DNA of 64,000 nucleotides. It comes from Haloplanus aerogenes (GTDB lineage Archaea > Halobacteriota > Halobacteria > Halobacteriales > Haloferacaceae). The stretch lies in assembly GCF_003856835.1 (NCBI RefSeq), contig NZ_CP034145.1, forward strand, positions 620,001 through 684,000, read 5' to 3'. How positions within the stretch are numbered: the first letter of the stretch is position 1; every line of letters starts with the position of its first letter. This document shows, piece by piece, positions 7,284 through 21,057 of this stretch. Below the pieces are notes generated by a model. It saw only the letters and a program-made list of their open reading frames with translations. It was not told the DNA's origin and did no database searches. The translations under genes were made by a program, and so were the position numbers.

Positions 7284-7979
7284 TCAGCGGTCGTCGCGGC
7301 CGTCCCGCTCCGCCGCCGTCCGGAACCCGAACTCCGCCTGTTCCTTGCTCCGCCGCTCCTCCCGTGCCGCCAGCGCCTCCGCGTCGGGGTTCACGTCGTC
7401 GTCGATGCGCGCCCACCCCGCGTGGACCTTCGCGTGACACCAGCGACAGAGCGAGACGGTGATCTCGTGGGCGGGGTCGCCGTCGCCTCCCTCCCCACCG
7501 CAACCGTATGACAGGTGATGTTCTTCCAGCAACGGCCGCGCGTCCTCGTGAGCCATCCGGACCTCCGCCAGTCCACAGCGCCGACACTCGCGCCCGTCGG
7601 TCGTCGAGCGGTAGTGCGGGCAGTCGCACCAGTCGGCGTCGCCGGCGACGACGCAGTCGTAGCCGTCGGCGCGACGCGCGGCCGCGAATTCGGGGTCGTC
7701 GCCGGCCGACGGCCGGCTGTCGTCGGCCTCCGGCCGACTGCCCGAGGGACTGTGTCCCTCGCTGCTCGGGGGACGTCGTCCCCCGCTGTCGCCGGCTTCG
7801 CCGGCTTCCAGAGGGATCTCCGATCCCTCGCTGTCGCCGGCGCGTTCGAGCGCGAACCGACACCGACCGTCGGAGGTGAGGTGGTCACAGCGGTCGGCGT
7901 GGTCGTAGGGATCGTCCACCCCCACCGGCGTTCCCGTGGGCGTCCGCTCCATGCTGGGGCGGTCGGCTTCCACGGGCAT
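7284..7979 (-). CDS. Cys/His-rich HNH-like protein with palindrome-encoded insert
   Basis: This 231-residue haloarchaeal protein has two conserved parts. The N-terminus (1-45) contains a Cys pair (CDHLTSDGRC). The C-terminal part (about 105-195) has a zinc-ribbon/HNH-like pattern: CDCPHY, ECRRCGL, an EEHHLSYG motif and CRWCHAKVH, resembling HNH endonuclease-type metal-binding folds (inference). Between them, residues 50-93 are a Gly/Ser/Pro/Glu/Asp-rich linker encoded by six consecutive short palindromes (7701-7829), unlike the rest of the gene. An internal ATG at 7952 is an alternative start. The function is not known; it could bind or cut nucleic acid. Confidence 0.7.
   Translation of the reverse strand: MPVEADRPSMERTPTGTPVGVDDPYDHADRCDHLTSDGRCRFALERAGDSEGSEIPLEAGEAGDSGGRRPPSSEGHSPSGSRPEADDSRPSAGDDPEFAAARRADGYDCVVAGDADWCDCPHYRSTTDGRECRRCGLAEVRMAHEDARPLLEEHHLSYGCGGEGGDGDPAHEITVSLCRWCHAKVHAGWARIDDDVNPDAEALAAREERRSKEQAEFGFRTAAERDGRDDR
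7701..7829. repeat. Array of six in-frame palindromes with 3-nt loops
   Basis: There are six perfect stem-loops in 129 nt: GCCGGCC/GGCCGGC (7701-7717), GTCGGCC/GGCCGAC (7722-7738), GAGGGAC/GTCCCTC (7744-7760), GGGGGAC/GTCCCCC (7768-7784), GCCGGC/GCCGGC (7791-7805) and GAGGGATC/GATCCCTC (7811-7829). All have a 3-nt loop and stems of 6-8 bp, separated by 4-7 nt. The stems differ in sequence, so the conserved property is the structure. The array lies in frame inside the gene at 7284-7979. Confidence 0.85.
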
Positions 7980-20412: not shown

Positions 20413-21057
20413 ATGGACGTCGCCCTCCTCTACAGCGGCGGCAAGGACTCCACGCTCGCGGCGCTTCTCCTCGACCGATTCTACGACGTGACCCTCGTCA
20501 CCGGTACCTTCGGGGTCACGGACGACTGGCGGCACGCCGAACGGGCCGCAGAGCGCCTCGACTATCCCTTTTCACACCTCGAACTCGACCCCGCCGTCGC
20601 CGCCGACGCCGTCGACCGCATGCTCGACGACGGCTACCCCCGCAACGGCATCCAGATGGTCCACGAACACGCGCTCGAACGCGCCGCCGAACTCGACGCT
20701 ACCGCCGTCGCCGACGGCACCCGCCGCGACGACCGGGCGCCGACGATTCCCCGCTCGACCGCCCAGAGCCTCGAAGACCGCCACGGTGTCGACTACCTCG
20801 CCCCCCTCGCCGGCTTCGGCCGTGGAGCCGTCGACCGCCTCGTCGAGGCCACCCTCGACGTGGAGACGGGGCCGAGCGAGGCCATCCCGCGGGCCGATTA
20901 CGAGGCCGAGTTGCGGGCGCTTCTGGTCGAACGTGGTGAGGTGGTCGAGCGCGTGTTCCCGCCCCACGACCAGACGCACGTCCGCGGAATCCGTCGTCCG
21001 TCGGACGACGCCGACTCCCGTGATCCGTCGGATCACGCCCCCGACACGCCGAAGTAA
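20413..21057 (+). CDS. PP-loop ATPase (adenine nucleotide alpha-hydrolase superfamily)
   Basis: This 214-residue protein has the PP-loop YSGGKDS at residues 7-13, which binds ATP in enzymes that adenylate a substrate (tRNA thiolation, NAD synthetase, diphthamide ammonia ligase and relatives). The DGTRRDDRAPTIPRS segment near residue 100 is typical of the archaeal subgroup. The exact substrate is unknown. It starts directly after the PDCD5 stop. The last roughly 20 residues (from IRRPSDDADSRD on) form an extension encoded by two consecutive palindromes of the kind seen at 7701-7829. Confidence 0.82.
   Translation: MDVALLYSGGKDSTLAALLLDRFYDVTLVTGTFGVTDDWRHAERAAERLDYPFSHLELDPAVAADAVDRMLDDGYPRNGIQMVHEHALERAAELDATAVADGTRRDDRAPTIPRSTAQSLEDRHGVDYLAPLAGFGRGAVDRLVEATLDVETGPSEAIPRADYEAELRALLVERGEVVERVFPPHDQTHVRGIRRPSDDADSRDPSDHAPDTPK
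20993..21037. repeat. Two in-frame palindromes with 3-nt GTC loops
   Basis: GTCGTCC-GTC-GGACGAC (20993-21009) and CGTGATCC-GTC-GGATCACG (21019-21037) are perfect stem-loops of 7 and 8 bp with identical loops, 9 nt apart. They encode the C-terminal extension of the PP-loop protein. The architecture matches the array in the gene at 7284-7979. Confidence 0.8.

Follow-up and report, generated by a model that had tools for sequence, protein, structure and literature searches.

The linker that interrupts a DUF7097-family gene is a stack of three copies of a 45-nt insertion unit, each copy consisting of two small hairpins with 3-nt loops. In our opinion, the three copies are likely to represent a family of short, non-autonomous, dispersing palindromic elements that extends across the class Halobacteria, with selection at the protein level acting as a filter. 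The direct observations are that the unit is present or absent as a whole, that it lies next to or nested within older units, that it is dispersed in unrelated genes and in noncoding DNA, and that its frame and orientation are biased.

Hairpin array in the DUF7097 gene

Six perfect stems with 3-nt loops, spaced by 4-5 nt, lie inside the minus-strand ORF at 7284-7979 of the window, the term used here for the whole stretch of 64,000 nt that was analysed. The first-pass annotation had placed six such stems back to back within a coding region at 7701-7829, and the hairpins are confirmed there; the extent of the array, for its part, requires correction, the inserted stretch being 7701-7835, or 135 nt, which is exactly three steps of 45 nt. 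The features are as follows.

7284..7979, minus strand: host gene of the DUF7097 family (PF23382), 231 aa including a 45-residue insertion; based on the ORF, the Pfam match (E=9e-81), and insertion-free orthologues
7701..7835, minus strand: inserted stretch, 135 nt = 3 x 45 nt, missing in orthologues; empty site GCCGGC/GACGAC (the slash marks the junction)
7767..7790, minus strand: unit 1, first half; GACAG followed by hairpin A, CGGGGGAC gac GTCCCCCG (7767-7785)
7701..7718, minus strand: unit 1, second half; hairpin B, GCCGGCC gtc GGCCGGC (7701-7717)
7719..7766, minus strand: unit 2, nested within the linker of unit 1; AGCAG, hairpin CGAGGGAC aca GTCCCTCG (7743-7761), GGCA, hairpin GTCGGCC gga GGCCGAC (7722-7738), GAC
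7791..7835, minus strand: unit 3, roughly GACAGC, hairpin GAGGGATC gga GATCCCTC (7811-7829), TGGAA, hairpin GCCGGC gaa GCCGGC (7791-7805)
7701-7717: hairpin 1, 7 bp stem, 3-nt loop
7722-7738: hairpin 2, 7 bp stem, 3-nt loop
7743-7761: hairpin 3, 8 bp stem, 3-nt loop
7767-7785: hairpin 4, 8 bp stem, 3-nt loop
7791-7805: hairpin 5, 6 bp stem, 3-nt loop
7811-7829: hairpin 6, 8 bp stem, 3-nt loop

The array contains more palindromes than codon-shuffled sequence, as the original reading of this region required. None of 5,000 protein-preserving shuffles with the codon usage of the genome produced more than three hairpins of this kind, against six observed, and 5,000 shuffles of the region's own codons produced at most four. 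Five stems of at least 7 bp are present, versus a maximum of three in codon shuffles. As single-stranded DNA, the array strand folds into the same six hairpins (z = -6.7). Single hairpins of such size are not in excess across the 64,000-nt window; the exceptional feature is the tandem arrangement of the hairpins, not the frequency of single ones.

Stepwise occupancy of one junction

None of the 25 other-genus orthologues examined (Halobellus, Halorubrum, Natronomonas, and others) has the array, and 5 of 12 congeners lack it too; in all of these the protein reads ...RAG/DDPEF... or similar, without a linker. The remaining congeners, including this genome, carry inserts of 45, 45, 45, 90, 90, 114, and 135 nt at exactly the same junction. 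Since insert lengths step by 45 nt at a single junction, with no insert in other genomes, the linker was built from 45-nt insertions. The expectation of the first-pass annotation that an alignment of orthologues might find the array present or absent as a unit was thus met.

The composition of the inserts shows nesting. Two congeners (G004 and G007) have unit 1 in its unsplit form, with hairpin types GGGGGAC and GCCGGCC. In two others (G006 and G009, 90 nt), the linker of unit 1 contains unit 2 (GAGGGAC and GTCGGCC), and unit 3 is missing; the latter is unique to this genome (G000) and lies in front of units 1 and 2. The 114-nt insert of G003, judged from its sequence, looks like the 135-nt form less a 21-nt collapse between two B hairpins. 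It should be noted that unit 2, which scores 69.4 bits against the covariance model R1 described below, is found alone in G005, so that a simple order of unit 1, unit 2, unit 3 leaves this congener unexplained.

The unit and its distribution

The unit can be written as GACAG, hairpin A (8 bp), GGCA, hairpin B (7 bp), GAC, with 3-nt loops; A and B hairpins alternate head to tail (A-B-A-B) with a period of 45 nt. Hairpin pairs and reading frames were counted in a 1.264-Mb sample of this genome rather than in the whole. The sample contains 21 adjacent pairs of hairpins with 3-nt loops, where fifth-order Markov controls have 0-2; adjacent pairs with loops of 4-8 nt are in no similar excess. A genome-wide excess of single hairpins was also considered and set aside as weak; only the adjacent pairs with 3-nt loops stand out. 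The largest array found comprises ten hairpins, within a response-regulator/PAS/histidine-kinase-like ORF.

A covariance model was built from 19 units chosen for perfect stems. It has at least 59 matches in this genome at E <= 0.1, matches in all 12 congeners and, at E <= 0.001, matches in 251 of 292 haloarchaeal genomes, representing 64 of 77 genera. Linkers and unit period are alike across genera, and identical modules (e.g., CGAGGAGCcacGCTCCTCG) occur in unrelated genes of one genome. Together with the orthologue steps and the codon shuffles, this genome- and class-wide spread supports the earlier suggestion of a haloarchaeal counterpart of the Rickettsia coding palindromes that inserts in frame into genes. 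No haloarchaeal description of a 45-nt unit was found in open-access papers, the subscription literature being outside the search.

In a sample of about 240 genomes of the phylum from outside the order, a single genome matched, and marginally (G428, 7 matches, best E = 3e-4). Its assembly is 1.9 Mb long and 84% complete.

Host genes, reading frame, and noncoding copies

The units reside within genes for photolyase, a DHH-family phosphoesterase, a TrxB-like protein, PhzF, an Mre11-like phosphoesterase, MutS domain V, Kae1 (TsaD), Ham1, IS200 TnpA, and many histidine kinases, as well as in an annotated merA on a Natrinema zhouii plasmid, where the unit peptide is DSEGRGPSGNRTQSGD. Thus, small palindromic repeats have repeatedly remodelled conserved proteins, including MutS, Mre11-like, Kae1, MerA, and histidine kinases, across an archaeal class, as RPEs (Rickettsia palindromic elements) have in Rickettsia. 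Each insertion adds a ready-made acidic loop of 15 residues to a working protein.

In histidine kinases (loci L021, L024, L060, L072, L169, L189, and others), the stretch coding for the conserved kinase motif N-S-V-E-H-G-S-T already contains an A-type hairpin, GTGGAGCacgGCTCCAC, with arrays immediately after it, and this motif may be where the module arose.

The same sense frame (frame 0) is used by 25 of 32 matches in the 1.26-Mb sample of this genome and by 48 of 51 scored cross-genus loci, where it was read on the minus strand for minus-strand matches; the three exceptions are of low confidence. Of the six frames, this alone encodes a peptide that is acidic and strongly hydrophilic (charge -2, GRAVY -2.1); the other frames and orientations yield basic or hydrophobic peptides. 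For this reason, purifying selection on the protein suffices to account for the bias in frame and orientation. Most copies in the sampled part of the genome are intragenic. Intergenic copies are not obviously enriched there, contrary to the simple prediction that insertion followed by filtering would leave them in unfiltered sites.

Noncoding copies do exist. An intergenic array in G006 has an apparent period of 43 nt, and in the genomes of genus g2, which is probably Halorubrum (an inference, not a demonstrated identity), the same hairpins and linkers are abundant in apparently noncoding repeats. In G049, G017, and G022 (L254-L261, L266-L269, L271-L273), such repeats are high-copy, hold the same hairpin arrays, and have common flanks, cacctcacgcctccccagcctcg... 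and ...ctcgcgcgtgc...cacgcgccaccgc. They are possibly a source of units.

The first-pass annotation had also entertained selection at the RNA level. More generally, the arrays might be kept for a nucleic-acid function, either mRNA structure or DNA-binding sites, the protein linker being a by-product. The strong folding of the array would agree with this, as would the fact that stems in a few shared arrays have changed far less than their flanks. However, presence and absence vary between congeners in the same gene, the hosts are functionally unrelated, decayed stems persist in some orthologous copies (G009 and G007), and a search of Rfam at permissive thresholds returned no family at its gathering score. 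We therefore regard a nucleic-acid function as very improbable. RNA-level selection on the DUF7097 gene in particular finds no support as the cause, given arrays in unrelated genes and in noncoding DNA and the stem decay in these two congeners.

Covariation of stems and of the encoded residues

The proposal that stem sequences differ while the structure is kept holds well: stems vary yet stay complementary, and residues of the unit peptide covary as the pairing dictates. In the set used for the model, 19 of 19 stems are paired and 8 of 15 pairs have changed on both sides; this set was chosen for perfect stems and is not independent. A peptide-pattern search, which does not require pairing, is more independent, yet some of its loci were fetched with the covariance model. 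In that search, residues 3 and 8 are V-T (15), E-S (13), or A-A (10) in 38 of 41 peptides, with no cross-combinations among these types, and the rest look like chance matches. Analogously, residues 4 and 7 are E-S or G-P in 38 of 41. The paired codons covary in the protein because the stems covary, i.e., complementarity of the DNA dictates which residues can be combined. Base pairing in DNA thus forces covariation of amino acids, which could mislead protein coevolution methods.

These data bear directly on the possibility of an ordinary protein-level repeat, in which a useful acidic peptide of 15 residues was spread by recombination and the palindromes are an accident of codon usage. Recurrence of the same peptide type in one frame would be expected of such a repeat. 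Nevertheless, synonymous shuffles fail to give the hairpins, and residues 3 and 8, like residues 4 and 7, covary solely as pairing dictates; these two results refute the explanation as stated. Noncoding arrays with the same hairpins, among them the intergenic one with the apparent 43-nt period, also speak against it, and virtually no weight remains on its side.

Within aligned array positions, compensatory changes on both sides of a stem (111) are about as numerous as one-sided changes (115). Several shared orthologous units are nearly identical while their flanks differ by 8-18%. This pattern points to homogenisation or to repeat insertion rather than to plain inheritance; its cause may be gene conversion between copies, separate insertions of one and the same unit, or constraint. 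A given stem can carry its loop in either orientation (GGA/TCC), and in one orthologous noncoding hairpin the inner stem and loop are swapped on both arms (ACCAGAACGCttcGCG.. vs ACCAGAAGCCgacGGC..). The latter pair, at G000:C1:963795-963844 and its G009 orthologue, is apparently noncoding and lies beside GGGACTGAAAGGGGC (or its complement). Template switching within hairpins would explain both the two loop orientations and the swapped inner stem, and may keep stems perfect.

Hairpin-templated mutation could even be proposed as the whole explanation. In that case acidic linkers would arise normally, and template switching at quasi-palindromes, in the course of replication, would perfect the hairpins and duplicate them locally, with no movement between loci. 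The reverse-complementary loops on the same stem, the swapped noncoding hairpin, and the frequency of two-sided changes all fit this model. What it does not accommodate is the occurrence of identical modules in unrelated genes of one genome, the clean 45-nt steps at the empty sites, and the sameness of linkers and unit period across genera. We find it quite improbable as a replacement for dispersal of an element, although the same process could maintain stem perfection after insertion.

Insertion anatomy and candidate movers

The DUF7097 junction is not an isolated case. Single 45-nt presence/absence sites also distinguish G000, G006, and G009 in the TrxB-like gene, photolyase, PhzF, Ham1, and others, and longer arrays differ as well. 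These genomes are distinct species with about 85% DNA identity, and no recent transposition at the level of strains was seen among them.

The cleanest insertion is in an IS200 tnpA gene of this genome (G000:C1:690550-690590). It places 45 extra nt, in which TGTC borders the hairpins on either side, between the VWC and PKYR codons. The exact empty site, GTGG/TGTCC, is found in tnpA of three relatives (Halorientalis, Haloterrigena, and Natrinema). The insert consists of a 41-nt double hairpin and a 4-nt direct repeat, making 45 nt; it is AT-rich and lies in antisense orientation, so that TGTC corresponds to GACA, the array linker, in the sense orientation. The direct repeat could be a duplication or a part of the element. 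A tnpA homologue of Natronorubrum daqingense has a different two-hairpin insertion of about 51 nt a few bases away. The idea that the unit in the tnpA of this genome is a transposon end was rejected, as reading of the gene identified it as another insertion inside tnpA.

Elsewhere, the evidence for a target is weaker. Units are flanked by GAC on the left in 42 of 67 cases and on the right in 59 of 67, a feature partly built into the model. Left and right flanking tetramers agree in 24 cases versus 17.4 after shuffling (p about 0.02), which is only a slight excess. An exact 4-nt duplication is seen at one site only, divergence blurring the boundaries of others.

The following mechanism is inferred from this one exact site and from the 45-nt steps. 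Insertion would occur into GAC(A)-like sites, the normal product being 41+4 nt, and the reading frame would be kept because one unit adds 45 nt. Copies in other frames or orientations would presumably be removed by purifying selection, so that the survivors would be acidic loops of the type D-S-x-E-x-R-S-x-G-S-R-x-x-x-D, with 15 residues per unit. Arrays may grow because each unit brings new target-like linkers. The catalyst could be a nuclease or recombinase, as yet unidentified, with a specificity for hairpin structure; alternatively, the replication and repair machinery of the host could act through template switching, mediated by microhomology, at hairpins.

No enzyme that mobilises the units was identified. 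A reverse transcriptase was rejected as the mover, being present in only 1 of 12 congeners. Neither did a limited search for carriage by phages or viruses return anything: one array had no matches in annotated phages, and one exact module pattern had none in viral contigs.

In a special case of the favoured explanation, a hairpin-recognising Y1 (HUH) transposase would move the units in trans, the units being non-autonomous, PATE-like relatives of IS200/IS605 elements or REPs. The anatomy of hairpin plus tetranucleotide resembles that of REP/RAYT substrates and of the 52-bp terminal-only PATEs of Haloquadratum (PMC3119063, PMC3733652), and 9 of 12 congeners carry genes of the IS200 type. However, G007, G010, and G011 have no Y1_Tnp match but carry 43, 17, and 9 units, respectively (G010 is incomplete), and a 4-nt direct repeat, which may be a target duplication, accompanies the cleanest insertion; PATEs and IS605-type elements, in contrast, produce no such duplication (PMC3119063). 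With no correlation within the genus, the IS200 Y1 transposase was rejected as a necessary mover, and the special case as a whole appears unlikely. It is possible, although less likely than not, that haloarchaea carry a mobile system, so far undescribed, which detects hairpins by their structure and not by their sequence, whose product length (a 41-nt core plus a 4-nt duplication, 45 nt) preserves the frame, and whose element acts as a natural generator of acidic protein loops throughout the class.

Relation to known palindromic elements

The RPEs, of about 150 bp, are inserted in frame in unrelated protein genes (PMC10969869). The haloarchaeal units are like them in being short palindromic elements that lie in frame within unrelated protein genes and add a peptide tolerated by the host (PMC10969869), but they are 45-nt double hairpins with variable, covarying stems, form tandem arrays, and are spread over a whole archaeal class.

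Like the units, GTAG- and CGTC-tagged REPs consist of a small hairpin next to a short conserved sequence, with stems of varied sequence and some intragenic copies (PMC3733652). The haloarchaeal linkers GACA and GGCA, which may or may not correspond to the REP tag, read TGTC and TGCC in reverse complement, and TGTC has been reported among the variants of CGTC (PMC3733652). In contrast, these REPs are mainly extragenic, the CGTC type has loops of 4-5 nt, and head-to-tail dimers are negligible (PMC3733652), whereas haloarchaeal copies are mostly intragenic (in the sampled genome), have 3-nt loops, and are arranged head to tail as A-B-A-B. Thus, the expectation of head-to-head or tail-to-tail dimers is not met, nor is that of a RAYT (Y1 transposase) in the genome, as for GTAG REPs, given the three unit-bearing congeners without a Y1_Tnp match. 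The 45-nt unit works like REPs, and especially like RPEs, but fails their features of size, location, loop, and dimer orientation, and is therefore a variant rather than a member.

The PATEs of Haloquadratum are likewise haloarchaeal and short, with two near-terminal palindromes; they are related to IS605 ends, and their 52-bp terminal-only forms may be mobile (PMC3119063). Unlike the units, they have not been reported to insert in frame into proteins at a period of 45 nt. The unit is also unlike a MITE, as hairpins A and B differ and aligned units have no terminal inverted repeat. The double-hairpin elements of mitochondrial genomes are similar in consisting of two adjacent small hairpins that disperse, but they are mitochondrial. 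With the 45-nt unit, experiments in tractable haloarchaea could address directly how short palindromes move and why they stay in frame.

One further hairpin pair is present in the window, at 20992-21037, near the C-terminal end of the plus-strand ORF 20413-21057. Its two adjacent 8-bp hairpins share the 3-nt loop GTC; with a weak score of 21.7 bits against the unit model, it is a divergent match.
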